From contig LADV01000176.1 of NCBI GenBank assembly GCA_000961805.1, positions 1 through 27,864 on the forward strand: a stretch of DNA of 27,864 bases, read 5' to 3'. This stretch comes from Peptococcaceae bacterium BRH_c23 (GTDB lineage: Bacteria; Bacillota_B; Desulfitobacteriia; Desulfitobacteriales; Desulfitobacteriaceae). Shown here in pieces: positions 2 to 23,629 of this stretch. Each line of letters starts with the position of its first letter. The first letter of the stretch is position 1. The notes under the pieces were generated by a model. It was not told the origin of the DNA, made no database searches, and saw nothing but the letters and a program-made list of their open reading frames with translations. Position numbers and translations under genes: made by a program.

Positions 2-367
2 TATCGAGAGAAAAACAAGATTGAAGAAGCTTTTCGAGAGATGAAATCACAACTTGCATTACGTCCCATCTATTTGACACGGCCAGAGCGAGTGAAAGCC
101 CATGTGACCATCTGCATCTTAGCTTACTTGCTGATAAACTCAATCGAGATGATGCTCAGGAAAGCGGAAATCACACAGTCGTCTGAAGAACTGCTGCGAC
201 AAGTGAGTAGCTGTCGATTAAATCAGGTTGGGTTAAAAAATTCTTCTCAACGTTCATTAACTATTACAGAGATGACTGACCAGCAGGAAAAATTGGTCAA
301 ATTATTTAGTTGTGAAAAAATGATGAAGCCGAAAGTGATTAACCAGTTCAATAATTTCTTACTGTAA
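2..367 (+). pseudogene. 3' end of an IS4/IS1634-type transposase (cut by window edge)
   Basis: The open frame enters from the left edge and encodes about 121 residues, ending in TAA. It begins YREKNKIEEAFREMKSQ, which fits the Y-(2)R-(3)E-(6)K signature around the last catalytic Glu of IS4-superfamily DDE transposases. The following stretch (RPIYLTRPERVKAHVTICILAYLL) is typical of the C-terminal end of IS1634/IS4 proteins. Only the C-terminal part is visible, so it cannot be said whether the element is intact; 'pseudogene' here means partial in this window. An in-frame ATG at 41 is internal and should not be taken as the start. The right end of the element probably lies within about 370-460, where GTCGCCAAACTCGGGATAG (441-459) could be the terminal repeat; the left end needed to confirm this is missing. 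Confidence 0.8.
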
Positions 368-471
368 AACATGTTGTAGTGACAAAACGCTTTCTTACGC
401 ATGGTCTAAAGCCTTGCTACGCCTGGGTCTGGAAAAAAATGTCGCCAAACTCGGGATAGAACTTTAGAATC

Positions 472-514
472 TTTTTATAAAATTTTTATAATTGCTTTAA
501 AACGAGTTTAAAAC
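472..514 (+). promoter_or_regulatory. Candidate response-regulator binding site (paired 11-bp direct repeats)
   Basis: TTTTTATAA occurs at 472-480 and 483-491, and TTTAAAAC at 496-503 and 507-514. Within each pair the repeats are exactly 11 bp apart, one helical turn, which is the usual spacing of half-sites bound by OmpR/PhoB-type dimers. The downstream pair covers the place where a -35 box would lie, and no good -35 hexamer is present, so this looks like a class II activator site. The OmpR-type regulator at 2700-3386 is the obvious candidate binder (inference). Confidence 0.5.
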
Positions 515-521
515 CTCCCGC

Positions 522-527
522 TATAAT
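522..527 (+). promoter_or_regulatory. -10 box TATAAT for the His-rich protein gene
   Basis: A perfect TATAAT lies 33 bp before the ATG at 561. No TTGACA-like sequence sits 16-18 bp upstream; that position is occupied by the TTTAAAAC repeats, suggesting activator dependence. Confidence 0.55.
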
Positions 528-560
528 CAATTTGTAGCAAAAAACAGGGAGGTCGTTTAG

Positions 561-1244
561 ATGAGTAAACTGAAACTTATGTACGATGTGATTTCCATAT
601 TGAAAGAGAAGGAGGTTATTAGTGGTATTTTTCAAGCGGAAGCCAAGAAAGATCAACTACAATTAGTAAGCTTTACGAATGAATTTGAAAAGAATCTTTC
701 CAGCGGTGAGACCAAAGTCAAGATTAGTACAGAACTGGATTGTGATGGCAAGAAAGTGAAACATGAAAGCCAAACCGAGTTTACAATGCAGGACTGCTGC
801 GCTGGGCATAGGCATCATGGCTTTATGAAACATATGCATCATACCCACCACGATAATGGTCAAAACAATGGGGATTTAAAATGTGGAGGGTTTAAAGGGA
901 AATTAACGAAACTGGCGTTTGTACTAAGTATTTTTAATCAAATTAAGGTTGATGAGAAAGAGGATAAGTCCGTCTTTTTATCCTTAAGCCTAAATGATAT
1001 TCCGGATGACATTAAAAAAACCTTCCAGGAAAGATGTAGTCAGGGAAAAATGTCCGAGCATCATCAACATCACGGCTGTATAAAGGAGTTCTGTGCCTTG
1101 AAAGATCCAAAGATCGAGGTTAAGGTTTGGATCAAAAAGACTAGAGAAGTAGAAAAGCTTGTGGTGACCGTTGATGGAAAGCAAGTCAATGAACTTAATG
1201 AAAACCATGATATGAGTCTATTGGCAGAATTGCGTCTAACTTAA
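561..1244 (+). CDS. His-rich hypothetical protein linked to a two-component system
   Basis: This gene encodes 227 residues and belongs to no family I recognise. Its start is well set by AGGGAGG (546-552), 8 nt before the ATG. There is no signal peptide or membrane segment, so it is probably cytoplasmic. Its distinctive feature is a Cys/His-rich block at about residues 76-112 (DCCAGHRHHGFMKHMHHTHH, then a Cys), with a second cluster (SEHHQHHGCIKEFCALKD) at about 165-183. The outer parts are charged and mixed alpha/beta. Such clusters usually bind transition metals. The next gene is a sensor kinase that itself has a His-rich N-terminus, so the protein may be a metal buffer or an accessory or target of that system. 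A strong terminator follows, making it its own transcription unit, and its promoter carries OmpR-type repeats. Function is unproven. Confidence 0.85.
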   Translation: MSKLKLMYDVISILKEKEVISGIFQAEAKKDQLQLVSFTNEFEKNLSSGETKVKISTELDCDGKKVKHESQTEFTMQDCCAGHRHHGFMKHMHHTHHDNGQNNGDLKCGGFKGKLTKLAFVLSIFNQIKVDEKEDKSVFLSLSLNDIPDDIKKTFQERCSQGKMSEHHQHHGCIKEFCALKDPKIEVKVWIKKTREVEKLVVTVDGKQVNELNENHDMSLLAELRLT

Positions 1245-1284
1245 CTAAACCAAGTCAGAAAAGAATTTTCCTCCTTTAAACCGA

Positions 1285-1318
1285 GGACGCAAAACAATGA
1301 TTTGTTTTGCGTCCTTTA
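1285..1318 (+). terminator. Rho-independent terminator after the His-rich protein gene
   Basis: A perfect 13-bp stem (1285-1297 with 1302-1314, GGACGCAAAACAA) with a 4-nt loop TGAT is followed by a short T run. Confidence 0.85.
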
Positions 1319-1454
1319 ATAGATATAATGAATACGATAAGCTTCAATGAAGGTTAAGGAACAATGGTTATAGTCACTCTGATTAGTTTTGATTAACTTG
1401 ATTAAAGCAAAACTAAATTGGTACTGTAGTGTTTAAAATTAGAAGGAAGCATCG

Positions 1455-1475
1455 ATGGGTGAACTTATGTGTTGA
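1455..1475 (+). CDS. Possible 6-codon leader ORF overlapping the kinase start
   Basis: AGAAGGAAG (1441-1449) is well placed for the ATG at 1455, which opens a frame MGELMC ending at TGA 1473-1475. It overlaps the presumed GTG start of the kinase at 1469 in another frame. It could couple kinase translation to an upstream initiation event, or simply be chance. Confidence 0.2.
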   Translation: MGELMC

Positions 1476-2722
1476 AGAGAATGATAAAACGTCTTATGAG
1501 AAAATTAAAAAAAGGAAAGAACGTTCACCATAGCGGTCATCGGGAATTCCGCAGAAAACAACTGGAATTCCATGAGCAGCAACGTGAATTATGTTGTCAT
1601 CAGGAATTTCAGAGAAAACATCGGGAATTCAATCAGTTTCATAAGTCTCTTCGTTTTTTACGTCCAGTTAGCATCGTATTTAACTTAATCATTCTATACT
1701 TACTATTTAAATGGGTAGGTATTAAGTCAATTAGTATTTTTTTTGCAGTATTTATAATTATTAAAGAAATCTTGCAGTTTTCTTTTCTCTGGCGTTTAGA
1801 GAAGAGGGTATTTAAACCCATTCATAAGCTTAAAGATGGAGTGGAAGAGATTTCTAAAGGGAATTATAATGTTAAAGTGGAGAGCGACGTAATGAATGAT
1901 CTCGGATTCATTGGGCTTTTAGTGGATTCTTTTAATGAAATGGCCCAAAAGTTACAAGCAAGTGAGAAAGTGAAGTCCGAGTATGAAGAAAATAGAAAGA
2001 TGCTCGTTGCTAATATTTCACATGATCTTAAGACACCTATCTCAACAGTTCAAGGGTATATTGAAGCGATTTTGGACGGGGTCGTTATATCACCGGAAAA
2101 ACGGACGATGTACCTTAAAACGATCTATCAAAATACAGTTTATATGGATAAATTGATCGATGATCTCTTTTTGTTTTCTAAGTTGGATCTGCAAAAACTG
2201 GATTTTCAGTTTGAAAATGTACAAGTAAGAGCTTTTATGGATGATTTGATGGAAGAATTTAAGTTTGAACTTGAAGAAAAGCAGTGTAATTTTTATTATC
2301 TGAATAAGATGGAAGGTGATTGCCTGATTAATATTGATAGGAAAAGATTATATCAGGCTTTTAGGAATATTATTGGAAATGCTGTTAAATATGGATCTAA
2401 TCAGGATTTAACCATCAAGATAGAACTGGATAGACAAGACGATTTTATAGGTATTAATATCGAAGATAATGGACCGGGAATTCCTGAAGACAAACTTCCT
2501 AATATTTTCAATAGATTTTACAGAATTGATAACGAGCGTACAAAAGACTTAATGAGTACTGGCCTTGGACTTGCCATTGCTAAGGAACTTGTGCAAGCCC
2601 ATGGAGGATCAATTACTGTATTAAGTCTGGAAAGAGAGGGCGCTTGTTTTACAATACGGCTCCCAATTCTTATCAAAAATGATTTGGAAAGAGGTAGGTA
2701 TGAAACGGATTTTAATTATTGA
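1469..2722 (+). CDS. Membrane sensor histidine kinase with His-rich N-terminus
   Basis: This 417-residue kinase autophosphorylates on His and passes phosphate to the regulator encoded just downstream. Residues 1-60 are basic and His-rich, with repeated HREF/HQEF plus RK units and a CCH motif. Two closely spaced membrane helices follow (about 66-82 and 86-103), so there is almost no extracytoplasmic sensor domain. A HAMP linker (about 110-165) leads to the H-box ANISHDLKTP, phosphoacceptor His185. The ATPase domain shows the N box (FRNIIGNAVKYG), G1 (DNGPGIPED) and G2 (STGLGLAIAKE). The likely start is GTG 1469, with GGTGA at 1458-1462 as ribosome site; ATG 1481 is an alternative. Its end overlaps the regulator by 23 nt, so the two are translationally coupled. 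I infer that the His-rich cytoplasmic segment senses a metal or pH; this is not shown. Confidence 0.92.
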   Translation: MLKRMIKRLMRKLKKGKNVHHSGHREFRRKQLEFHEQQRELCCHQEFQRKHREFNQFHKSLRFLRPVSIVFNLIILYLLFKWVGIKSISIFFAVFIIIKEILQFSFLWRLEKRVFKPIHKLKDGVEEISKGNYNVKVESDVMNDLGFIGLLVDSFNEMAQKLQASEKVKSEYEENRKMLVANISHDLKTPISTVQGYIEAILDGVVISPEKRTMYLKTIYQNTVYMDKLIDDLFLFSKLDLQKLDFQFENVQVRAFMDDLMEEFKFELEEKQCNFYYLNKMEGDCLINIDRKRLYQAFRNIIGNAVKYGSNQDLTIKIELDRQDDFIGINIEDNGPGIPEDKLPNIFNRFYRIDNERTKDLMSTGLGLAIAKELVQAHGGSITVLSLEREGACFTIRLPILIKNDLERGRYETDFNY

Positions 2723-3386
2723 AGATGATCAAAATATTGCTGAACTAGAACGAGATTATCTTCAATTAAATGGATATGAAGTGGATATTGTACAAGATGG
2801 AGCACAGGGTCTGAGGATGGCCTTGACGGGCCAATATAATGTTATCATTGTGGATTTAATGTTGCCAGGTAAAGATGGATATCAAATCACCAAAGAAGTT
2901 CGCGATAAATTTGAGATTCCTGTGCTCATCGTGTCTGCTAAAAATGAGGATATCGATAAAATTAGAGGACTTGGTTATGGAGCTGATGATTATTTAACAA
3001 AACCATTTAGCCCTGCGGAGTTGGTGGCAAGGGTTAAATCTCATATTACAAGATATGAACGTCTGAAAGGCAAAACAGTAGCTTCTGAAATAATAAACCA
3101 CAGAGGATTGGAGATAAATACAGCATCCCATAAAGTCTTTGTTAATGGGAAAGAAGTTCAAATGACGACAACAGAATATGGATTGCTAGTGTTTTTTGCC
3201 ACAAATCCAAATATTGTTTTTAGTAAAGAACATATTTTCGAGACTATATGGGGGAATGAATACTTTGGAGATAGTGCAACCGTACCTGTTCATGTACAAA
3301 AGATAAGAAAAAAGATCGAAAGAGACCCTTCAAATCCGGAATTTATCGAAACTTTATGGGGAACGGGATATAGATTTAATTCTTGA
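2700..3386 (+). CDS. OmpR/PhoB-family response regulator
   Basis: A 228-residue two-domain regulator. The receiver domain has the acidic pair D9/D10, phosphoacceptor Asp52 (IIVDLMLPGKDGY), Ser79 in the switch position (LIVSAKNED) and Lys101 (LTKPFSP). The C-terminal winged helix carries the usual EYGLLVFFATNPN, VFSKEHIFETIWG and VHVQKIRKKIE segments and the WGTGYRF end. The ATG at 2700 is chosen over an upstream in-frame ATG at 2679 because AGAGG (2690-2694) lies 5 nt before it and the protein then starts MKRILIIEDD as the family does. It is the partner of the overlapping kinase. The 11-bp repeats upstream of the gene at 561 are its best candidate target. Confidence 0.95.
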   Translation: MKRILIIEDDQNIAELERDYLQLNGYEVDIVQDGAQGLRMALTGQYNVIIVDLMLPGKDGYQITKEVRDKFEIPVLIVSAKNEDIDKIRGLGYGADDYLTKPFSPAELVARVKSHITRYERLKGKTVASEIINHRGLEINTASHKVFVNGKEVQMTTTEYGLLVFFATNPNIVFSKEHIFETIWGNEYFGDSATVPVHVQKIRKKIERDPSNPEFIETLWGTGYRFNS

Positions 3387-3462: not shown

Positions 3463-5016
3463 TTACACCAAAGGTTCGGTAAAACGAGGCCGGTTAGTCG
3501 TACCTTTAGTTTGAGATTGATTTAACATCTCCGTAATAGCCTCGCAGAGGCGGTAAATCCCTTCTCGAATCGTTGTTTCCGAATGACGACAGAAACAAAG
3601 TCTAATCCGGTCTTTCCCTCCGGAGTTAACATAAAAGGCATTCCCTGGGACAAACGTCACTTTCTTTTCTGCTGCTTTGGTGAGCAGCGCTGCGGCTTTC
3701 ATGCCAGGCGGCAGTTCACACCACAAGTAATAACCACCTTCCGGGACTGTCCAGGATAAGCCCTGAGGCGCAAACTCCTTTAAAGCGTACACCATGGCAT
3801 CGCGTTGACACTTATATTGTTTTCTAACGATTAGAAGGTGTTCGTCCAGCAGTCCTCGTTTACAAAATTCTGTCATAACCCACTGAGCGGTCGTGCTGGT
3901 ATGGAGGTCAACGTGCTGTTTGGCAAGGGATAATTGCTCTAGTACTGGGGTAGGTGCCACACACCAGCCGAGGCGAAGTCCAGGAAATAGTATTTTGGAG
4001 AACGTTCCCAGATAGATAACATGTCCATACTCATCTAAGGACTTAAGAGAAGGGAAGGGCTGATTTCCGTAAAACAGTTCGCTATAGGGATCATCTTCCA
4101 CGATCGGTACATGGTATTGATAGGCCAATTTAAGAAGCTGTTGCCGTCGTGCCAGACTCGTGGTTATCCCGGAAGGATTCTGGAATGTCGGAAGGGTGTA
4201 GATGAATTTAGGCCTATGTCGTGCTAAGATTTGTTCTAAGACATCTATTCTTAAACCTTCCTGATCTAACGGTACAGTAAGGATATGGGCGCCTGATGCC
4301 TTAAAAACACCAATAGCTCCAAGGAAAGAAGGTTCCTCCATGACGATGTAATCTCCTGGCTCCAAGAAAACCTTAGTTAGAAGATCAAGCCCCTGTTGAG
4401 AACCGGAGGTTATTAAAATAGTCTGGGCTTGAGTGCGTATGCCTCTCTGACTAAGCCAATCCGCTATATATTGGCGCAGGGGATAATGACCAATGGTAGG
4501 TCCGTATTCGAAGGCTTGCCAATTGCCGGGGCGCATGACCTCCTGGCTTATTTGACTAAATTCCTGAAGCGGATAGTATTCACCTGCTGGGGATCCCAAG
4601 GCGAAAGAAATCTGATCCTCTTCACCAATCTCATCCAATATTGACGCCAAGACGGGATTATGCAGGCGCTCTGACTGTCTGGTATAAAAATTTTGCCAAG
4701 ATATCGGCTGTACAGGCGCACCCAGTGCCTCAGAATCGTTGGCATTTGTAAAACGGTCATGAGAAGGGCCTACTGGCTGAGGGGGGCTTACGATGGTCCC
4801 TTTGCCAACGTGTGGCTGAATCAATCCATCGGCTACCAGTTCATGGTAGGCATTGACCACGGTGCTGCGATTGACGCCTAAGGTGGTTGCCAGCTTTCGC
4901 TCAGGCGGGAGGCGGAAACCGGGAGGAAGATCATTAGCTAGGATGAGTTGACGAATCTGGCTCCTGATCTGTAAGTAAAGCGGCGTCTTACCGGAACGGT
5001 CTATGTGCAGTTTCAT
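3463..5016 (-). CDS. MocR-family regulator (GntR winged helix fused to aminotransferase fold)
   Basis: The 517-residue protein has the MocR layout. Residues 1-75 form a GntR winged helix (TPLYLQIRSQIRQLI, LPPERKLATTLGVNRSTVVNAYHEL, GKGTIV). A linker of some 50 residues leads to a type I aminotransferase domain. PLP-binding residues are in place: the YTLPTFQNPSG segment, EDDPY (Asp308/309), Lys341 in GTFSKILFPG and the RLGW Arg. Proteins of this kind (GabR, PdxR) sense PLP-amino acid adducts and control nearby amino acid or vitamin B6 genes. The ATG at 5016 has GAGGG about 10 nt upstream. It follows a same-strand aminotransferase gene by 91 bp and is probably co-transcribed with it. The effector is unknown. 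Confidence 0.93.
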   Translation of the reverse strand: MKLHIDRSGKTPLYLQIRSQIRQLILANDLPPGFRLPPERKLATTLGVNRSTVVNAYHELVADGLIQPHVGKGTIVSPPQPVGPSHDRFTNANDSEALGAPVQPISWQNFYTRQSERLHNPVLASILDEIGEEDQISFALGSPAGEYYPLQEFSQISQEVMRPGNWQAFEYGPTIGHYPLRQYIADWLSQRGIRTQAQTILITSGSQQGLDLLTKVFLEPGDYIVMEEPSFLGAIGVFKASGAHILTVPLDQEGLRIDVLEQILARHRPKFIYTLPTFQNPSGITTSLARRQQLLKLAYQYHVPIVEDDPYSELFYGNQPFPSLKSLDEYGHVIYLGTFSKILFPGLRLGWCVAPTPVLEQLSLAKQHVDLHTSTTAQWVMTEFCKRGLLDEHLLIVRKQYKCQRDAMVYALKEFAPQGLSWTVPEGGYYLWCELPPGMKAAALLTKAAEKKVTFVPGNAFYVNSGGKDRIRLCFCRHSETTIREGIYRLCEAITEMLNQSQTKGTTNRPRFTEPLV

Positions 5017-6528: not shown

Positions 6529-7500
6529 ATGATTTTTGAACCACTAGGGATTTATAAAGTGAAATTACCCTTGCCATTTAGACTAAATCATGTGAACTGT
6601 CATGCAGTAAAAGGAACCCTTGGTTGGTGGCTCATCGATGCGGGTCTCAGCCGGGAGGCTACAGTTGAAGGGTGGATGCAGTTTTTTGAAGAACATGCTA
6701 TTAAGCCTTCAGATATTAAAGGAATCTATCTAACTCATTTTCACCCGGACCATTATGGATGTGCGGGGTGGCTTCAGAATTACTCAGGTGCTCCAGTCTA
6801 TATTGGGGAAATTGATGCCGATCGGATAGAACGCTACTGGAAAGGTAAATACGCTATTCTCGATGCGCTGGACACCTTGTTTAGGGATAATGGCATGCCT
6901 AATAAGATCGTCAAAGAGACCATCGGTTCCGTTGATAACCTGATTCGTTATACATCTCCACATGCAGAGCTGACAACCTTAAAGGCAGGCCAGGCGGTGA
7001 CAATAGGGGATTTCGAATACCAAGTCATCTTGACACCAGGGCATACGGATGGACATATCTGCTTTTACAATGTAGAACAAGGGGTACTCTTATCAGGGGA
7101 TCACCTCTTGCCTGAAATTTCGTCCAATATTAGTTTGTGGCCCCAAACCGGCGCTGATCCTAACCCCTTGGAAAACTTTCTGCTGGCCATCGACAGTATC
7201 CGGAGCTTGAATTGTAAATTAGTTTTGCCCGCTCACGGCAAGCCGTTCTCCACGGTTGAAGAAAGAATCAGTCAATTAGAGGCTCATCACAAAGCGCGCT
7301 TGCAAGAAATGAAAGACTGTACTGGCAGTGGTGCGACAGCTTATCAAGTCTGCCAACAGGTTTTTAGACAGGATCTCAGCTTTCATGAGCTGCGTTTCGC
7401 CATGGCGGAAACCTTGGCTCACCTCGTGTATTTGACCTATAAAGGTGAATTAAAGGTTTTCACTAAGGCAGGAATCGATAATTATTGCCTTAGTGTATAA
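6529..7500 (+). CDS. MBL-fold metallo-hydrolase
   Basis: A protein of about 323 residues with the metallo-beta-lactamase fold. Ligands for two metal ions are all visible: THFHPDHYG (His70, His72, Asp74, His75), PGHTDGHICF (His172), LSGDHLLP (Asp191) and PAHGKPF (His236). The C-terminal 90 residues (ISQLEAHHKARLQEM onward) resemble the winged-helix tail found in many MBL hydrolases of the glyoxalase II/LACTB2-like group. A thiolester or phosphoester hydrolase role is likely, but no substrate can be named. No strong ribosome site is present; ATG 6529 and GTG 6520 are both possible. It is divergent from the aminotransferase unit and may share the 6287-6519 intergenic region. Confidence 0.88.
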   Translation: MIFEPLGIYKVKLPLPFRLNHVNCHAVKGTLGWWLIDAGLSREATVEGWMQFFEEHAIKPSDIKGIYLTHFHPDHYGCAGWLQNYSGAPVYIGEIDADRIERYWKGKYAILDALDTLFRDNGMPNKIVKETIGSVDNLIRYTSPHAELTTLKAGQAVTIGDFEYQVILTPGHTDGHICFYNVEQGVLLSGDHLLPEISSNISLWPQTGADPNPLENFLLAIDSIRSLNCKLVLPAHGKPFSTVEERISQLEAHHKARLQEMKDCTGSGATAYQVCQQVFRQDLSFHELRFAMAETLAHLVYLTYKGELKVFTKAGIDNYCLSV

Positions 7501-7532
7501 TTGTTTTTTTCACACAGAGAATGGTTAGAAAT

Positions 7533-7564
7533 GCCCTTCATGTTCATTCACGGACATGAAGGGC
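7533..7564 (+). terminator. Terminator-like hairpin after the MBL gene
   Basis: GCCCTTCATGT (7533-7543) pairs perfectly with ACATGAAGGGC (7554-7564). Two further pairs can extend into the loop. The T run after it is weak. Confidence 0.55.
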
Positions 7565-16334: not shown

Positions 16335-16413
16335 ATAGATAGAAGTTTTCAAGGCAAATATGTTGAGATTTCGAGAATAAGTACGAAAAACATAGGATAT
16401 ATAAGGTTTTACC

Positions 16414-16453
16414 GAAGTGCCCAATAGGAGAGATCAATCCTATAGGGCACTTC
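16414..16453. terminator. Strong hairpin, probable terminator of the kinase-regulator operon
   Basis: GAAGTGCCC (16414-16422) pairs with GGGCACTTC (16445-16453). Inside it ATAGGA (16424-16429) pairs with TCCTAT (16438-16443). A clear T tract is absent on either side, so it may also serve as an mRNA stabiliser. Confidence 0.55.
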
Positions 16454-16524
16454 CCATTTAGGGTTCATTTAGGGTGAGTGTTTTATGATCGGAGTAACGC
16501 AGTAAATAGGAGGCGAAGCTATGA

Positions 16525-16617
16525 ATGAAAGTCTATAAGCAATATCAATTCAGAGTAAAAAATGTATCGATTCGACTTTCTGAACTGGAGTCATCAAAAA
16601 ATCTTAAACATCTTTAA
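16525..16617 (+). CDS. Possible 30-residue small ORF upstream of csrA
   Basis: AGGAGG (16508-16513) precedes two overlapping starts. ATG 16521 gives only five codons (MNESL). ATG 16525 gives 30 codons (MKVYKQYQFRVKNVSIRLSE and so on, ending SSKNLKHL). The ribosome site is good but there is no recognisable family. It could be a leader peptide, or the remnant of a gene such as one normally next to csrA; neither can be shown. Confidence 0.3.
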   Translation: MKVYKQYQFRVKNVSIRLSELESSKNLKHL

Positions 16618-16625
16618 AAAAGCCC

Positions 16626-16652
16626 TTAAGTTTTGCATCGATATTACGATAA
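16626..16652 (+). promoter_or_regulatory. Sigma-28 (SigD/FliA)-type promoter of csrA copy 1
   Basis: TTAAGTTT (16626-16633), an 11-bp spacer, then TACGATAA (16645-16652) match the flagellar sigma consensus TAAAGTTT-N11-GCCGATAA with one and two mismatches. It lies immediately upstream of the csrA ribosome site, giving a leader of about 20 nt or less. It ties csrA expression to the flagellar regulon. Confidence 0.6.
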
Positions 16653-16671
16653 TATAGTAGGAGGAACAATC

Positions 16672-16866
16672 GTGCTAGTGTTAGGAAGAAAGCCTGGCGA
16701 ATATGTGATGATTGGCGATGACATCATGGTCAAAGTCATTAAAAGTGAATTCGGTGATTTAAGACTCGCAATCAATGCCCCTCTAAGCACAACTATTACA
16801 CGTGGAGAATTATATGAAAATCAAAATGACTCTCTTACGATTAATAAACACCAAGCCATTCAGTAA
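16672..16866 (+). CDS. csrA: Carbon storage regulator CsrA, copy 1
   Basis: CsrA is a small dimeric RNA-binding protein that binds GGA motifs in hairpin loops and usually blocks ribosome access; in Gram-positives the main target is flagellin mRNA. This copy has 64 residues. The start is GTG 16672, with AGGAGGA (16659-16665) 6 nt upstream; an in-frame ATG at 16633 would lie inside the sigma-28 promoter. Conserved features are VLVLGRKPGEYVMIGDDIMVKV, GDLRLAINAP and the RNA-binding Arg in TTITRGELYE. RGEL replaces the more usual REEI/REEV. The C-terminal tail (about 14 residues after ELYEN) is longer than in many CsrA proteins. It is closest to copy 3. Confidence 0.95.
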   Translation: MLVLGRKPGEYVMIGDDIMVKVIKSEFGDLRLAINAPLSTTITRGELYENQNDSLTINKHQAIQ

Positions 16867-16901
16867 CTAACTAGAACAAGTAACTAAATATAGTTGCATG
16901 G

Positions 16902-16975
16902 ACGAGCAAATAAGCCAAATCATCCTTACAGGACGTAGGGGAGATTAGGAATATTTGCTCGTTTTCTTTATTTAT
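16902..16975 (+). terminator. Terminator hairpin with CsrA-site loop, after csrA copy 1
   Basis: The outer stem ACGAGCAAATA (16902-16912) pairs with TATTTGCTCGT (16952-16962), followed by a T-rich tail. The middle stem AATC (16918-16921) pairs with GATT (16942-16945). The inner stem CCTTAC (16924-16929) pairs with GTAGGG (16935-16940), closing a pentaloop AGGAC (16930-16934). The loop region UUACAGGACGU is close to the CsrA consensus RUACARGGAUGU. A further GGA (CATGGAC, 16897-16903) sits at the stem base. See the findings for the CsrA-binding proposal. Confidence 0.8.
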
Positions 16976-17012
16976 TGATTTATTAGTTCACCAAAATCAA
17001 GGAGGAAAAAAC

Positions 17013-17192
17013 ATGTTGGTGTTAGGAAGAAAGCCTGGAGAATATATCATGATCGGCGATGTTATGGTTAAAGTAGTCAGGAGTAACTCAGGTGATTTAA
17101 GACTCGCCATTGATGCTCCTAAAAACGTAAGTATTACACGGGGAGAGTTATACGAATGTCAAAAGAATTCTCTCACGACTAATATCCAGTAA
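17013..17192 (+). CDS. csrA: Carbon storage regulator CsrA, copy 2 (divergent)
   Basis: A 59-residue CsrA paralog with ATG start and AAGGAGG ending a few bases upstream (17000-17006). It reads MLVLGRKPGEYIMIGD, then VMVKVVRSNSGD, RLAIDAP and SITRGELYECQ. It lacks one residue in the GDDI loop compared with copies 1 and 3 (GD-VMVK against GDDIMVK), and it carries a Cys near the C-terminus. Leu4, Arg6 and the RNA-binding Arg of ITRGELY are kept, so it should still bind RNA. It could form heterodimers with the other two. It is flanked on both sides by the AGGAC-loop terminators. Confidence 0.93.
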   Translation: MLVLGRKPGEYIMIGDVMVKVVRSNSGDLRLAIDAPKNVSITRGELYECQKNSLTTNIQ

Positions 17193-17243
17193 TGTCTTTT
17201 CAACGGCACACTAGTATGAACTAAACTTAATGCAGGTACATGG

Positions 17244-17314
17244 ACGAGCAAATAGCCAAATAAACCCTACAGGACGTAGGGGAGTTATTTGGGATAGTTT
17301 GCTCGTTTTTTTTA
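17244..17314 (+). terminator. Terminator hairpin with CsrA-site loop, after csrA copy 2
   Basis: The outer stem ACGAGCAAA (17244-17252) pairs with TTTGCTCGT (17298-17306), followed by a run of T. CCAAATAA (17256-17263) pairs with TTATTTGG (17285-17292). The inner stem CCCTAC (17265-17270) pairs perfectly with GTAGGG (17276-17281) around AGGAC (17271-17275). CUACAGGACGU is nearly the CsrA consensus. TACATGGACGAG at the base repeats the extra GGA seen after copy 1. Confidence 0.85.
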
Positions 17315-17344
17315 TTAATCCAATTAATCAAGGAGGAGTAAATT

Positions 17345-17536
17345 ATGCTGGTGTTAGGAAGAAAGCCTGGCGAGTATGTGATGATTGGCGACGACATCAT
17401 GGTCAAAGTCATTAAAAGTGACTTCGGTGATTTGAGATTGGCAATCGATGCCCCTAAACACACACCTATTATACGTGGAGAATTATTTGAAGAGCAAAAT
17501 AAACCACCAAGATCAACTAACAAAAGTATCTCGTAA
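17345..17536 (+). CDS. csrA: Carbon storage regulator CsrA, copy 3
   Basis: A 63-residue CsrA with ATG 17345 and AAGGAGGAG about 7 nt upstream. The core is almost the same as copy 1 (VLGRKPGEYVMIGDDIMVKVIKSDFGDLRLAIDAP), pointing to recent duplication. The RNA-binding Arg is in TPIIRGELFEE. The C-terminal tail (QNKPPRSTNKSIS) is basic and differs from that of copy 1. It is the closest csrA to the flagellin gene. In many Bacillota a single csrA follows fliW and precedes hag; fliW is not in this window. Confidence 0.95.
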   Translation: MLVLGRKPGEYVMIGDDIMVKVIKSDFGDLRLAIDAPKHTPIIRGELFEEQNKPPRSTNKSIS

Positions 17537-17564
17537 TTTTGAAAAGAACCTTAATAAATACTTC

Positions 17565-17633
17565 AAGGATGATTACCTTTGCTCATTCCAGCAGGACGCT
17601 GGGTTAGATGAGGCAAGGATCGTCCTTTTTTTA
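17565..17633 (+). terminator. Terminator hairpin with CsrA-site loop, after csrA copy 3
   Basis: AAGGATGAT (17565-17573) pairs with ATCGTCCTT (17619-17627) with one G-U pair, followed by a run of T. CCTT and CTCAT pair with ATGAG and AAGG farther in, with mismatches. The inner stem CCAGC (17588-17592) pairs with GCTGG (17598-17602) and closes AGGAC (17593-17597). The sequence differs from the hairpins after copies 1 and 2, yet the apical loop is the same, which suggests selection on the loop. Confidence 0.8.
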
Positions 17634-17690
17634 TAGCTCCTAATCATTAATTTGGTAATAAGCCGAGTGGCCATGAGGCTTGTTATAAAT

Positions 17691-17732
17691 ATGTGAACAC
17701 GGAAGTTCACATAAATAAAAAATACACGGAGG
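17691..17732 (+). promoter_or_regulatory. Flagellin leader with two candidate CsrA-binding sites
   Basis: Site 1 is a perfect 8-bp hairpin: ATGTGAAC (17691-17698) and GTTCACAT (17705-17712) close the loop ACGGAA with a GGA motif. Site 2 is ACACGGAGG (17724-17732), where GGA overlaps the Shine-Dalgarno sequence 8 nt before the ATG. The pair matches the known arrangement in the B. subtilis hag leader, where CsrA bound at both sites blocks translation. No convincing sigma-28 promoter was found right upstream. Confidence 0.75.
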
Positions 17733-17740
17733 TTATAGTT

Positions 17741-20700
17741 ATGATTATCAACCACAATATGGCGTCACTGAACACCTATCGTCAGATGAGTACCAACATG
17801 ACCAACACCAGCAAATCGCTGGAAAAACTGTCCTCAGGTCTTCGCATTAACAAAGCGGGTGACGATGCTGCTGGTCTTGCCATCTCCGAAAAAATGCGTG
17901 GTCAGATCCGTGGTCTAGATCAGGCAGCTCGTAATGGTCAAGATGGTATTTCATTAATCAACACTGCTGAAGGTGCATTGAGCGAAACCCATAGCATTCT
18001 GCAACGGATGCGCGAGCTTGCTGTTCAGGCGGGCAATGATACTAATACCACGAATGACCGTACTGAGATTCAGAAGGAAGTCAATCAGCTTACTTCTGAG
18101 ATCAACCGCATTGGTAACACCACCGAATTCAACACAAAGAAACTGCTTAAAGGCGAACTGAATGTACAGAGTGCAGTCACCGCTAAAGTGAGTGGTGGTT
18201 TGGTTGGTGATAGTATTGACATCATAACTTCCGCGACTAAGGCTACTGCTACAAGTACAGGATTAAGTGACGTGAGTATTTCTGCTGTAGGTGGTAAGAC
18301 AGTAACCGGTGATGTAGCTTATGCAAGTCATGCTGCAGTTGGTTCAGGACCAAATGTTCAATTAACTAAGGCTACAGCTACAAGTAGTGTAGCACTTGCA
18401 ACTGCTGATATTTCAGAAGTAGGCGGCCTGACCGAAACTGGTGATGTGGTTTATGCAGGTCATGCTGCTGCTGATTCAGGACCAACTGTTCAATTAACTA
18501 AAGGAACAGCAACGGGTACAGCAATAACAGATGCTGCTGCTAAGATCGACAGCTTTTCAGGAGATGTAGCAACGGGTACTGCGGCTTATACTGTTGCTGG
18601 TGGTGGTGCAGGAGAATTTGTAGGTCCAACAGTAACAGCTACAGATAATGAACTGCAATTCACACTTAATGGAAGTGCTTACACTGCTACTTTAGTAGCA
18701 AATGATTATGATGGATCAGCTGGTAATGGTGCCGCTAAATTTGCAGATGATTTACAGACTGCCATGCGATTAGCTGCAGCTGCAGATGCTAATCCGAATG
18801 ATATCACCGTAACCCTTGGTGCTGACGGTAAAATTGCTATAGGTTTAGCTGATACGAATAGTAGCACCATGTCAATTGATGGTGGTGGATTAGCAACAGA
18901 ACATTTACTTGCAGCACCAACAGATTCATTAACAACGACAACAGCAACTGCTAACGATGATCTTACGCTAACAGTAAGTGGCACAACTAAGACAATTAAT
19001 TTGGCAAATGCCACATATGATCTAACTGCCTCTGGTGGAGCTGGAGATCAAACTGATTTCTTAGTAGATCTTAATGCAAAATTAGATACGGCTTTCGGTG
19101 CTGGTAATGTAACTGCAACTTTTGATGCAGACGATAAGCTAACTTTTACAAATAATGCAACAGGAACATCAAGTACGCTAACTAATATTTCTGGTGGCGC
19201 AGCGGCAACACTTGGATTAACAGCTGCTACCTCTGTACAAGGAACTGAAAATAATCAGTTAACAGTTACTCTAAACGGCACGCAAAAGACAATTTCCCTA
19301 GAACTAGCTGATTATGCTGCAGGTGCAGACAATAGTGCAGATGACTTTGCAGCAGACATACAAGCCAAGCTTCAAGCCGAAGGCGGAGATTTCGCCAACG
19401 TCACAGTTGGGTTTGATGCTAACAACAAGATGGTATTTACAACAGCTGACAGTACTGACACATTCTCTGTAGATGGTGGCGGTGCAAAAGCCCTTGTTGG
19501 AGGTACATTCACAGCTGGAACAGCGGGGACAGGTAACAATGATTTATCACTTACAGTAGGCGGCGTTACCAAACAAATTACGCTAGCTAATGATAACTAT
19601 GATTTCTCAGTTGCACAAGATAAAACTGATTTCTTAGCAGATATCAATGGTAAATTAGATACAGCTTTTGGTGCTGGTAATGTAGCTGCAAGCTTTGATG
19701 GAACTAATAAGCTAGTTTTTACAAATAATGCAGAGGGAACAACAAGTACTATAACTGATATTTCTGGTGACGCAGCAGCATCACTTGGATTAACAACTCC
19801 TGATATAATACAAGGAACTGAAAATAATCAGTTAACAGTTACCCTAAACGGAACCCAAAAGACAGTTTCTCTAGACATAAAAAACTATGATACAAGTGTA
19901 ACTGAGGGCGCAGATGACTTTGCAGCAGACATACAAGCTAAGCTTCAAGCAGAAGGTGGAGATTTCGCTACAGTCACAGTTGGGTTTGATGCTAACAACA
20001 AGATGGTATTTACCACTGCTGACAGCGGAGACACGTTAACTGTAGATGGCGGCGGAGCGAAAGCGCTTGTGGGCACCAGCTTTGCAACCGCTAATGAGGG
20101 ATCTGGTAACAACGAGTTATCTATCACCGTCGGCGGCGTAACCAAAGCCATTACTCTTGCTACTGATGACTATGATTTTGCTAATGTTGCGCAAGATCGA
20201 ACTGATTTCCTAGCCGACCTACAAGGCAAACTCACTACTGCTTTCGGTGCAGGAAATGTTACAGCTTCTTTTGAGGCTAGCGGATCAGCCTTTGATCCTC
20301 GGCAGAATCTAGTTATCACTAATAATCTGACTGGAGAAAACAGTACAATCGGCAACACCACAGGTAGTGCATCGTCCGATTTAGGATTAAGCTCATCTAC
20401 ACTAGAGCAGGGTAAAAACGCCAATCATACAGGATCAATTGTAATAGACGGGACAACCGCTAATATTAGCTTAGCTGCTGGAACAAAAACAGCAGCGGAT
20501 CTTGCCAGCGAATTACAAACCTCGATTAGAGGAAACGTAGGTCTTGCTAATGCAACTGTAAACGTGGTTGATGGTAAGTTTGAAATAAGTTCGGGCAATA
20601 CTGGAGAAACAGGTACAGTATCTATTAGCTCTGGTGATCTTGCTAAAACCTTAAAGTTGACAGCTGCAGAGGGTGCTGTTAGCACTACTGGTACGAATGC

Positions 20701-21202
20701 CGTAGACAACGGACTTAAGCTACAAGTAGGTGCTAATGCTCAGCAGACTATGGGCATTGATATTTCGGATATGCGCAGTAAAGCCTTAGGTGTAAGTGCT
20801 GACAGCACGGGTACGAGAGTAGCTAAAGACGGGCAAGTTGCATCCTATGTAGCTTCGGGCAATGTAACCGATGGTACAAACAATGACACTACCGAATACT
20901 CACTTGATATTTCCACTGCTGCTAAGGCGACTGCAGCAATTAGTGTAATTGATGACGCAATTACTAGCGTCTCTGCTGAACGTTCTAAGTTGGGTGCCTT
21001 CACGAATCGTCTGGAGCACACTGTCACCAACCTGGGAACTTCAAGCGAGAACTTAACCGCTGCCGAGTCCCGTATACGTGACGTAGACATGGCTAAAGAA
21101 ATGATGCAGTTCCAAAAGAACAACATCCTTTCCCAAGCCGCTCAAGCCATGATGGCTCAAGCCAACCAACAACCTCAAGGTGTTCTCCAACTACTCCGTT
21201 AA
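17741..21202 (+). CDS. hag: Flagellin, giant form with repeat-rich central region
   Basis: Flagellin subunit of the filament, exported by the flagellar type III apparatus. At 1153 residues it is several times the length of common flagellins (roughly 270-500). The start ATG 17741 is set by GGAGG (17728-17732); an in-frame ATG at 17693 falls in the leader hairpin. The N-terminal D0/D1 part ([49 protein letters not shown]) and C-terminal D1/D0 part ([52 protein letters not shown]) are standard. Between them about 900 residues rich in Thr, Ala, Gly and Asp form surface-exposed domains made of repeats, including a 191-residue tandem unit. Very few Lys/Arg and no Cys occur there. It follows three csrA genes and is probably controlled by them. 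Confidence 0.96.
18236..18500 (+). repeat. 43-44-codon repeats in flagellin central region
   Basis: Units begin at ACTAAG 18236, 18365 and (as ACTAAA) 18497, spaced 129 and 132 nt. Each full unit runs from TKATATS through VGG and TGDV.YA.HAA to SGP.VQL. The third is only a beginning. Confidence 0.75.
18956..20400 (+). repeat. Tandem 191-codon repeats in flagellin central region
   Basis: Two alternating modules are seen in order A-B-A-B-A. A modules start near 18956, 19541 and 20114 ([30 protein letters not shown]). B modules start near 19238 and 19811 ([17 protein letters not shown]). The B copies are 573 nt (191 codons) apart. The [12 protein letters not shown] and [18 protein letters not shown] segments resemble the flagellin hook IN motif. 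DNA identity is high enough to allow length change by recombination. Confidence 0.85.
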
Positions 21203-21730: not shown

Positions 21731-22102
21731 TGCTAAAATGACGATGAGAGGACATAGTACAATCTGTTTCCATTTAAAGAGAGTTGCCGTTTGGTGCAAG
21801 GCAGTAATGGATAGGATTGGAACTCTTCCTCGAGTAGCCGACCGAAATTGGATTAAAAGTAGGCTCGGACGGAGCTTCCACCGTTAAAAGGAAGGAGATA
21901 TCGGAACTTCGATGTTCGAAGTTCGATGCGCCAAGTTCGAACCAAAAGTAGTTTTTTAGGGTCGAACCACGAACATCGGACCACGAACCACGATTACTCC
22001 CGTATCTGCAGAGAAGACAGCTATTTGTTAGTTGTCAACTTGAGTGGTACCGCGAAACTAACCCTTCGTCTCAAATATGAGACGAAGGGTTTATTTATTT
22101 TT
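21731..22102 (+). promoter_or_regulatory. Leucine T-box riboswitch of leuA
   Basis: A full T-box leader. Stem I holds GAGAGGA followed by an AGTA loop-E-like motif (about 21745-21760), an AGAGAG and GGTGCAAG distal part, and GGAACTCTTCC. There the specifier position (21823-21825) reads CTC, a leucine codon, in agreement with the gene controlled. The antiterminator carries TGAGTGGTACCGCG (22041-22054), one base off the canonical TGGGTGGTACCGCG. The terminator is AACCCTTCGTCTC (22060-22072) with GAGACGAAGGGTT (22079-22091), then a T-rich tail. Uncharged tRNA-Leu binding should favour antitermination and leuA transcription. The stretch 21900-21995 between stem I and the core is made of TTCG-rich inverted motifs. 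Confidence 0.9.
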
Positions 22103-22117: not shown

Positions 22118-23629
22118 ATGCGTAAATTGTATGTTTTTGATACTACCCTCAGAGATGGAGAGCAATCCTTGGGGATAACTCTGAATGTTAAAGAGAAGTT
22201 AGAGATTGGCCACCAGTTAGTGAAGCTCGGGGTGGATGTTATTGAAGCCGGTTTCCCAGCTTCTTCGCCGGGAGACATGGAGTCTGTCCGAACGATTGCT
22301 AAGGAAGTTAAAGGAGTCATTATCTGTGGTTTGACAAGAGCCGTTGTCCCAGACATTGATCTTTGTGCCGAAGCGTTACGCAAAGCAGAATACCCTCGAA
22401 TCCACACGGGCATAGGGGTATCTCCGGTTCACATGGCAAAGAAGTTAAAGCTTACTCCAGATCAAGTCGTGGAGCAAGCGGTTGCTGCCGTGAAATATGC
22501 CAAAAAATATGTGAGCGATGTGGAGTTTTACGCAGAAGATGCTTTCCGCAGTGACCCAACCTTCTTGGCCAGAGTGATCGAAAACGTGATTTCTGCTGGA
22601 GCTACAGTCGTTAACCTTCCGGATACAGTCGGTTATGCTAACCCGTGGGAATACGGAGAACTGATTAGTTATGTTATCAAGAATGTGAAGAATATTGATA
22701 AAGCGGTTGTCAGTGTTCATTGCCACAACGATTTAGGAATGGCAACTGCAAATTCCCTGGCAGGGATTAAAGCGGGAGCGAGCCAAGTAGAAGGAACTAT
22801 TAACGGTATTGGAGAGCGGGCTGGTAATACTTCTTTGGAAGAAGTCATAATGTCCATTTATACCCGGCGTGATGGGTACGGAGTGGAGAGTAGAATAAAG
22901 ACCCGTGAAATTTCTGCTACCAGCAGACTCGTTTCTCGGATAACTGGTGTGACGGTCCCGGATCATAAAGCGATTGTAGGAGCCAATGCATTCAATCATG
23001 CCTCAGGTATCCATCAAGATGGGGTTCTGAAAGATAGGGAAACCTATGAAATTATCAAGCCTGAAACCATCGGTGTACCTCAAAATATCATCAGCCTGAC
23101 AGCAAGATCCGGAAGACATGCCCTCCAACATTGCCTGGAGGAATTAGGGTATACCATAGAGGGCGCTCAGTTGGATGACGTATATCAAAGATTCTTACAG
23201 TTGGCGGATCAGAAGAAAGAAGTGTTCGATCAAGATCTATATGTCCTCATGGGGGATTCTGGTGGGATAGAAAGTAATATTGTGCTGCAGAGTATGTCTA
23301 TCGCGACAAATGGGGTTGAGATGGCGACCGCCACCGTAATCCTGGAAATAGAGGGAATTCTTATTACTGATGCCGCTTGCGGGAACGGTCCGGTCAATGC
23401 TCTATTCAACGCGATTGATAGAATCACTGGCAATATAGCTCTCCTTGAAGATTATACCCTCAAGTCTGTGACTCGGAGTAGCGAGGCTCTAGGGGAAGCG
23501 ACTGTTAAATTGCGCTATGATGATGGCCGCCTTGTAGTAGGCAAGGGTTTTTCCACGGATATTATTGAAGCCAGTGCCAAAGCTTATATTAATGCCTTAG
23601 ATAAGAGAGATTTGCATACTGAACTATAA
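22118..23629 (+). CDS. leuA: 2-isopropylmalate synthase
   Basis: LeuA condenses acetyl-CoA with 2-oxoisovalerate to 2-isopropylmalate, the first committed step of leucine synthesis. The protein has 503 residues, close to the usual 510-520. The catalytic TIM barrel begins with FDTTLRDGEQS (Arg12, Asp13) and carries the HxH metal ligands in SVHCHNDLGMA and the GERAGN loop. The segment GANAFNHASGIHQDGVLK is typical of bacterial LeuA. The C-terminal part (LDDVYQRFLQLADQKKEVF through the VKLRYDDGR region) is the leucine-binding regulatory domain, so feedback inhibition is expected besides the T-box control. ATG 22118 follows AAGGAGG at normal spacing; the in-frame codons upstream belong to the leader. 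The gene stands alone; leuB, leuC and leuD are not next to it. Confidence 0.96.
   Translation: MRKLYVFDTTLRDGEQSLGITLNVKEKLEIGHQLVKLGVDVIEAGFPASSPGDMESVRTIAKEVKGVIICGLTRAVVPDIDLCAEALRKAEYPRIHTGIGVSPVHMAKKLKLTPDQVVEQAVAAVKYAKKYVSDVEFYAEDAFRSDPTFLARVIENVISAGATVVNLPDTVGYANPWEYGELISYVIKNVKNIDKAVVSVHCHNDLGMATANSLAGIKAGASQVEGTINGIGERAGNTSLEEVIMSIYTRRDGYGVESRIKTREISATSRLVSRITGVTVPDHKAIVGANAFNHASGIHQDGVLKDRETYEIIKPETIGVPQNIISLTARSGRHALQHCLEELGYTIEGAQLDDVYQRFLQLADQKKEVFDQDLYVLMGDSGGIESNIVLQSMSIATNGVEMATATVILEIEGILITDAACGNGPVNALFNAIDRITGNIALLEDYTLKSVTRSSEALGEATVKLRYDDGRLVVGKGFSTDIIEASAKAYINALDKRDLHTEL

Follow-up and report, generated by a model that had tools for sequence, protein, structure and literature searches.

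The question raised by this locus is why three tandem csrA genes, lying just ahead of a flagellin gene, should each be followed by a hairpin with the same pentaloop, AGGAC. CsrA has been characterized chiefly in the control of translation, with an activity that is set by sponge RNAs in Gammaproteobacteria or by the FliW protein in Bacillota and others. The locus is part of a 27,864-nt stretch of DNA from Peptococcaceae bacterium BRH_c23 (contig LADV01000176.1; the whole stretch is referred to below as the window), in which a sequence-only reading had taken the hairpins for likely CsrA-trapping 3' ends of the csrA genes.

All features of the locus are encoded on the forward strand. A tentative sigma-28-like promoter, identified by pattern match (TAAG, 15 nt, ACGATAA; 16627..16652), is located 19 nt upstream of csrA1 (16672..16866, 64 aa, GTG start) and would result in a very short leader; pattern matches at the equivalent place, 20 nt before csrA, were found in the loci L001 and L002. 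It is followed, in this order, by csrA1, element 1 (16900..16964; GGA at the 5' foot, 16900-16902, AGGAC tip, 16930-16934, then a U-rich run), csrA2 (17013..17192, 59 aa), element 2 (17242..17308; foot GGA 17242-17244, AGGAC tip 17271-17275, then a U-run), csrA3 (17345..17536, 63 aa), element 3 (17565..17627; foot GGA 17567-17569, AGGAC tip 17593-17597, then a U-run), the flagellin leader and the flagellin gene (17741..21202). All three elements are terminator-like hairpins, elements 1 and 2 double as 5' leaders for the next csrA genes (csrA2 and csrA3, respectively), and element 3 precedes the flagellin gene. The csrA3 product has its closest relatives (86% and 84% identity) in two Desulfosporosinus genomes, and the window resembles Desulfosporosinus.

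The flagellin leader contains a GGA-loop hairpin (17690..17713; loop ACGGAA, 36 nt before the flagellin start codon) and a Shine-Dalgarno sequence that itself includes GGA (ACGGAGG, 17726..17732). The ACGGAA loop resembles the upstream one of the sites that CsrA binds in Bacillus subtilis hag. About 28 nt 3' of element 3 begins another conserved leader hairpin (AAUAAGCC ... GGCUUGUU; 17655..17686), which is near-identical (UAAUAAGCC-GAGUGGCCAUGA-GGCUUGUUA, with the palindrome UGGCCA within its loop) in Desulfosporosinus, Sporomusa-type and Geosporobacter loci and was also found in L001, L002, L008, L018, L020, L023, L034 and L057. It has no Rfam match in the window, L001, L018 or L057, and is possibly a separate leader motif. 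The flagellin itself is unusually long (~1,150 aa), with repeated blocks in the middle of the protein that are visible by eye.

The three AGGAC loops could be confirmed at the positions given above, where they sit on unbroken runs of 7, 6 and 6 base pairs, counting G-U. Three AGGAC hairpins with at least 5 pairs in the region 16601-17745 compare with a mean of 0.01 in 300 dinucleotide shuffles, and there is one further such hairpin elsewhere in the window, at 2966. Each loop caps a long stem with a U-run behind it (folding z-scores -6.96, -7.17 and -4.91; predicted stabilities from -28.6 to -32.1 kcal/mol), so that all three elements have the form of intrinsic terminators, with a strong GC-containing stem and a U-run, and are predicted to terminate transcription. 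The flanks of the third hairpin, which had been called unrelated to those of the other two, do differ in their letters but share the layout, with a GGA at the 5' foot, long arms and the AGGAC tip. The segment CUACAGGACGU of the second hairpin had been described as nearly the SELEX consensus of CsrA, which is given as RUACARGGAUGU in a review (PMC7652899); the fit is poorer than that, with ACA directly abutting GGA and no R between them, and the SELEX-type ACA before RGGA is unmatched at the element tips. Each stem also carries, at its 5' foot, a further Csr-like site that the earlier reading did not mention (CAUGGACGA, CAUGGACGA and CAAGGAUGA, all with CANGGANG spacing). The AGGAC tips, with GGA in a hairpin loop, and the CANGGANG feet agree in sequence with Csr-type sites, and both are predicted to be bound.

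For the survey of related loci, 80 loci were gathered by similarity to the CsrA3 protein, hence the choice of loci was blind to hairpins. Intrinsic terminators were called on both strands in 77 genome loci and the window, with identical sequences counted once and with L078-L080 and six loci from viral contigs (L081-L086) excluded. A first count found a GGA loop in 61 of 71 terminators located no more than 320 nt 3' of a csrA gene with G at position 5, versus 79 of 909 others, and many of those 79 sit just upstream of the same csrA genes. In the two-sided count (within 350 nt of an LGRKP-type csrA, see below), GGA was present in the loop of 106/132 terminators versus 32/831 others; L058, where no csrA ORF was called, was excluded from this count, though two such terminators are listed there. 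Among long and strong terminators (at least 55 nt, at most -25 kcal/mol) the GGA loop was found in 101/107 near csrA and in 4/29 elsewhere in the loci, the four exceptions (L049, L059, L063 and L076) being the same element at a flagellin, fliD or more distant csrA gene. The 101/107 is the figure unselected for the loop. At least one GGA-loop terminator near csrA was called in 65 of 78 loci, which contain one to four elements each, and none in the remaining 13; given the common ancestry of the element set, counts over the 77 loci are not independent of each other. Loci with elements include those of Desulfosporosinus, Sporomusaceae, Clostridium, Tepidibacter, Geosporobacter, Paenibacillus, Cohnella, Bacillus, Halalkalibacter and Alkalicoccus. 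The three hairpins of the window are members of a widespread RNA element of Bacillota with two Csr-type sites, and an origin by chance or as a general habit of terminators was rejected on the basis of the shuffles (0.01 expected) and of the other terminators (4/29).

The foot exhibits the consensus CANGGANGA at the base of the 5' arm, ~30 nt from the apical AGGAN loop. The sequence GGAYGA at the foot is found in 87/132 terminators near LGRKP-type csrA versus 10/831 others, and among 44 distinct foot segments (chosen for a foot GGA) there is G at +4, A at +5 and C/T at -3 in 43 each. The length of the arms is nearly uniform (s.d. 2.5, 106 elements, versus 8.5 for 375 other terminators). The GGA of the foot is separated from that of the tip by 26-37 nt, mostly 30-32, which falls within the range of 10-63 nt over which a CsrA dimer can bridge two sites according to the review cited above (PMC7652899).

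The alignment comprises 47 elements, 45 of the 55 listed plus elements 1 and 2 of the window added by hand, with ten omitted due to awkward length or spacing; all 47 have GGA at tip and foot, for which 45 were selected and which the two added ones also possess. In this alignment 95.7% of the cells are paired, versus 74.3% in shuffles, and 170 cells are doubly changed, versus 48.9 (0/500 shuffles reach either value), while the number of pairs with changes on both sides is 13 versus 9.9 (2/500). These compensatory changes indicate that the stems drift by compensation while the AGGAN loop stays, and the tip is the most constant feature of the aligned elements. The pattern is the opposite of the one named beforehand as evidence against a Csr role, namely related loci with stems kept and the GGA loop drifting freely, and selection appears to have maintained the GGA loops, which resemble Csr-type sites. 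This conservation goes with one csrA subfamily and with flagellin genes.

In RNA cut ahead of the 3' arm, the foot GGA of 102 folded elements has a mean unpaired probability of 0.73 (0.60, 0.66 and 0.27 in window elements 1, 2 and 3), which falls to 0.06 in the full hairpin, while for the GGA of the tip the respective values are 0.91 and 1.00. The foot can form a mini-hairpin of its own in many loci (134 pairs versus 107.7 in permutations, 44 clusters, p ~5e-5 in a test that is not tree-aware), but such pairing is also fairly common in ordinary terminators (4 pairs in 34%, versus 62% of elements; 5 pairs in 18% versus 24%). The mini-hairpin is good in many Bacilli and Clostridium-type loci, poor in several Desulfosporosinus and Sporomusa-type loci and weak in the window (4, 1 and 2 pairs in elements 1, 2 and 3). 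A universal antiterminator mini-hairpin at the foot was therefore rejected, and only the linear foot site is claimed as general.

The csrA genes of these loci, including all three in the window, belong to a subfamily characterized by G at position 5 and, in most members, P at position 8 (LGRKPGEY). In a tree built on 63 columns, with the bootstrap not settled, a branch with support 99/97 separates 113 of 116 LGRKP-type rows from 16 usual-type rows, and the three odd LGRKP-type rows (L078, L079 and L084) group with the usual-type csrA. The LGRKP-type proteins are shorter (median 57 aa versus 78 for the usual type) and retain R6 and the later R, with the RGE motif in most rows; both arginines belong to the binding surface of CsrA. 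Compared to the TIGR00202 profile, the three window proteins exhibit clear homology (E-values from 8.1e-14 to 3.6e-15), with 51.5-55.9 bits against a cut-off of 70.1, and the subfamily as defined here thus has three members in the window that score under the curated cut-offs of NCBIfam. FliW genes are present in 31/31 genomes checked.

A covariance model of the element was used to scan whole genomes, scoring 150, 41 or 65 of the ~230-3300 first-look candidates per genome, so that absences are soft; E-values are rough. Among 29 genomes from the genus of G001, matches with E < 2e-5 occurred in 9, which are exactly those with at least two csrA genes, and in none of the 16 with one csrA or the 4 with none. 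Twenty of 22 other genomes had matches at E <= 0.001, and all these places are near a surveyed csrA locus except for two (G043 C12:108374 and G047 C12:143381), which precede fliD and a flagellin. More broadly, matches were found in 14/116 genomes from the family of G036 and in 9/73 from the order of G001. There are up to three matches per genome at threshold, nearly all of them at csrA-flagellin loci, and scattered mobile repeats were rejected on account of this clustering, which was seen with partial scoring of candidates; weak extra matches in G026 (L129) and G016 (L139) were read as plain terminators without two GGA sites. The model identified 71 loci, many of which are places it was built from, and 65 of these could be located by pattern (6 could not). 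The next gene in the 65 is csrA in 38 (36 assigned by script and 2 on inspection by eye), flagellin in 18 (16 and 2, respectively), fliD in 1, a ~120-aa protein in 4, and none or a spurious one in 4. The ~120-aa ORF (starting with MKESLVY or similar; L162, L179, L187 and L190) lies between the element and the next gene, and may resemble the four-helix-bundle proteins of rRNA intervening sequences.

The position of the elements bears on the view of the hairpins as csrA 3' ends, which is right in that each csrA gene of the window has one at its 3' side, but does not extend to the family, since many elements lie only upstream of csrA and some precede flagellin or fliD away from csrA. Among the 106 GGA-loop terminators near csrA, 44 are only upstream, 28 are between two csrA genes and 34 are only downstream. 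The recurring order, with many variants among loci, is a sigma-28-like promoter, ~30-50 nt, an element, ~30-40 nt, csrA, ~20-50 nt, an element, ~90-190 nt, and flagellin. Upstream elements end 19-79 nt before csrA in 57/72 cases and 128-205 nt before it in 15/72. Variants include csrA, promoter, element, flagellin in L049 (D. hippei), a similar arrangement in L063 but without a strict promoter match, a promoter with two elements and flagellin in L073, and a single element before fliD in L059.

Sigma-28-like matches are enriched 5' of the first element before csrA (40/61, versus 6.9% in shuffles), with a less clear enrichment before csrA genes without an upstream element (16/50, versus 16.4%), and the strict pattern occurs 27-61 nt upstream of 25/102 elements (0.6% in shuffles). 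The gaps between element and flagellin have no enrichment of sigma-28-like matches (2/29, versus 6.9%) or of sigma-A-like matches, and no sigma-A-like match was found in the window region 16400-17800, where 4.9 were expected. Element-to-csrA gaps contain sigma-28-like matches in 0/57 cases, which means little as these gaps are short (median 34 nt). The promoter scan covered the sigma-28-like and sigma-A-like kinds, and promoters of other kinds could serve flagellin. A GGA-loop hairpin, like that in the flagellin leader of the window, is present in 21/25 element-to-flagellin gaps versus 9.2% of shuffles.

With respect to function, we propose that the element is a transcription attenuator that gates csrA and flagellin genes with CsrA as its ligand, a reading to which we assign a probability of roughly 45%. 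The likely ligand, judging from the sites and their neighborhood, is CsrA, be it the LGRKP paralog encoded alongside or the fliW-linked CsrA. Two features expected of such an attenuator are present, namely a terminator between a sigma-28-like promoter (of predicted use) and the gene, and a Csr-type foot site that overlaps the stem. In the cut RNA, foot and tip tend to be open, and their spacing is within the bridging range, therefore a CsrA dimer could seize the RNA as it emerges and prevent the terminator from closing. Until the 3' arm is synthesized, both GGAs would tend to be accessible, and a dimer bridging foot and tip would hold the 5' arm, allowing RNA polymerase that started at the sigma-28 promoter to go on through csrA2, csrA3 and flagellin. 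If CsrA were scarce or held by FliW, transcription would stop at the elements, and the short terminated RNAs with their GGAs may further titrate CsrA. Translation of flagellin is probably repressed by CsrA as well, at the leader hairpin and the Shine-Dalgarno sequence, as for hag. In the full circuit, CsrA would be a direct switch of intrinsic termination along a sigma-28 operon of csrA paralogs and flagellin across Bacillota; polymerase would need CsrA dimers clamped onto the nascent RNA to reach flagellin, so that the flagellin mRNA would be made pre-loaded with its own translational repressor and released by FliW. This circuit is a more doubtful proposition than the attenuator as such. Its least certain step is the sign, i.e. 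read-through with CsrA, which is not fixed by sequence and might be the opposite; CsrA is described as a repressor of flagellin in B. subtilis (PMC7652899), hence CsrA-driven read-through is not the simplest logic.

The chief alternative is that terminated RNAs and csrA 3' ends act as a sponge, each RNA titrating CsrA with one or two sites while termination itself is unregulated, which is close to the earlier view of the csrA terminators. The part of that view according to which the GGA loops are Csr-type sites is very probably right, and a sponge could draw on the full exposure of the tip GGA in the finished hairpin (1.00), on the sigma-28-like promoters 27-61 nt upstream of 25/102 elements, which would give short RNAs, and on the precedent of the Campylobacter flaA mRNA, which titrates CsrA (PMC4894983). 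It leaves unexplained, however, why the elements sit between a promoter and flagellin or fliD, and why a Csr consensus is present at the foot, where it is buried in the finished hairpin; besides, known sponges have many sites, whereas there are one to four elements per locus here, and a free RNA of the CsrB/RsmZ type was rejected for the same reason (a hairpin has one or two sites, and the 65 loci with elements have 1-4 hairpins each). Elements that stand downstream of a sigma-28-like promoter and ahead of the genes are more in keeping with attenuation than with a pure sponge, and as there is no promoter signal of the two kinds scanned for behind the last element, flagellin would hardly be expressed from the locus unless polymerase passes the terminators, which again favors regulated read-through. 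We regard a pure sponge as unlikely, albeit one to be taken seriously. The opposite sign, with CsrA bound at the tip stabilizing the hairpin and so promoting termination, or else shielding the 3' end, would subject csrA and flagellin to negative feedback, relieved by FliW; it would account for the tip as the most constant feature and agree with the role of CsrA as a flagellin repressor (PMC7652899), but stems of -28.6 to -32.1 kcal/mol in the window leave little to stabilize and binding at the foot would compete with the stem that it overlaps, which makes this reading rather improbable.

Two further explanations carry much less weight. A different dimeric RNA-binding antiterminator, for instance an ANTAR protein, might use the element, as the targets of these proteins are described (PMC3369931) as two small hairpins, overlapping a terminator, with hexaloops that have A first and G fourth, and the foot hexaloop ANGGAN indeed has A first and G fourth. 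The tip, however, is a pentaloop (AGGAN) without G at the fourth position, and the GGA sites, the adjoining csrA gene and the GGA hairpin of flagellin all point to CsrA; the ANTAR dual hairpin was rejected because of the pentaloop tip, the foot hexaloop fitting with a stem that is weak in the window, and we consider an ANTAR-type ligand very improbable. Ordinary terminators or repeat-type hairpins with an incidental loop seem hardly credible: the elements do have the form of good intrinsic terminators, but other terminators in the same loci rarely carry the GGA loop or the foot site, and model matches at threshold number up to three per genome, nearly all at csrA-flagellin loci rather than as scattered copies (candidates being scored in part).

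The attenuator reading has relatives among known systems. As in EutV-type ANTAR dual hairpins (PMC3369931), a dimeric protein would contact two loop sites, one of which overlaps a terminator, but the ANTAR sites are two A1-G4 hexaloops, while the element has loops AGGAN and ANGGAN, a csrA context and its second site at the terminator's own tip. In the leader of E. coli pgaA, two CsrA sites likewise remodel a hairpin and alter transcription termination; there, termination is Rho-dependent and promoted by CsrA, whereas the terminator here is intrinsic (PMC7652899). CsrB/CsrC and RsmX/Y/Z share with the element the GGA in hairpin loops of a CsrA-linked RNA, but are free RNAs of Gammaproteobacteria with many sites, whereas the element is a terminator that separates promoter from gene and has only one or two. 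The B. subtilis hag system has in common with the locus the flagellin, csrA and FliW genes and a GGA-loop leader hairpin before the Shine-Dalgarno sequence; control of hag is translational, and what is added here are terminators with Csr sites and a separate csrA subfamily. The flagellin leader of the flaA mRNA from Campylobacter jejuni binds and titrates CsrA, but neither a terminator element nor a csrA neighbor is reported in the available text (PMC4894983), whereas both are present at the csrA-flagellin loci. On this reading the element would be a new form of known kinds, a Csr-site RNA and a protein-controlled attenuator. If the proposal is true, CsrA control in Gram-positives would act at transcription elongation and be coupled to the checkpoint of sigma-28, and there would be a concrete site in Bacillota at which RNA could control CsrA; the conservation of the element before and after csrA and before flagellin genes suggests an unrecognized switch for flagellum production.

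The element corresponds to an RNA family unmatched by Rfam 15 and not described in the literature found. Neither the window nor nine other loci had a match to the elements at gathering thresholds, and known families, including TwoAYGGAY and Bacillaceae-1, were rejected as there was no covariance-model score at gathering in these sequences; a permissive scan of 16400-17800 yielded four sub-threshold matches, all to eukaryotic microRNA or snoRNA families. TwoAYGGAY (RF01731) and Bacillaceae-1 (RF01690) resemble the element in being RNAs of Bacillota with GGA-type loops that are proposed to bind CsrA (in a 2014 paper that named TwoAYGGAY and, for Bacillaceae-1, its reverse complement as candidates for such RNAs beyond Gammaproteobacteria; PMC4333381), but their structures differ from that of the csrA-flagellin element. 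TwoAYGGAY matches in 9/31 genomes (6 over the cut-off) include none at csrA-flagellin loci among the places listed. A literature search at the level of titles and abstracts, with subscription journals and bioRxiv preprints mostly outside its coverage, found no description of the element; a 2016 paper on Paenibacillus motility places csrA and flagellin in one cluster (PMC5072692).

Several other RNA matches were observed along the way. L031 contains two Bacillaceae-1 matches among flagellar genes (3491-3557 and 4343-4409), the reverse complements of which show AGGAC loops, and one of them is just before an ORF at 4448 that appears fliW-like by eye. In the window, a T-box leader match (21735-22076) lies ahead of an ORF ending at 23629 that resembles 2-isopropylmalate synthase, also by eye. 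Finally, a c-di-GMP-II riboswitch match in L064 from Tepidibacter formicigenes (7435-7517) ends 30 nt before the csrA ORF at 7548 and, if real, would link second-messenger control to a csrA locus.
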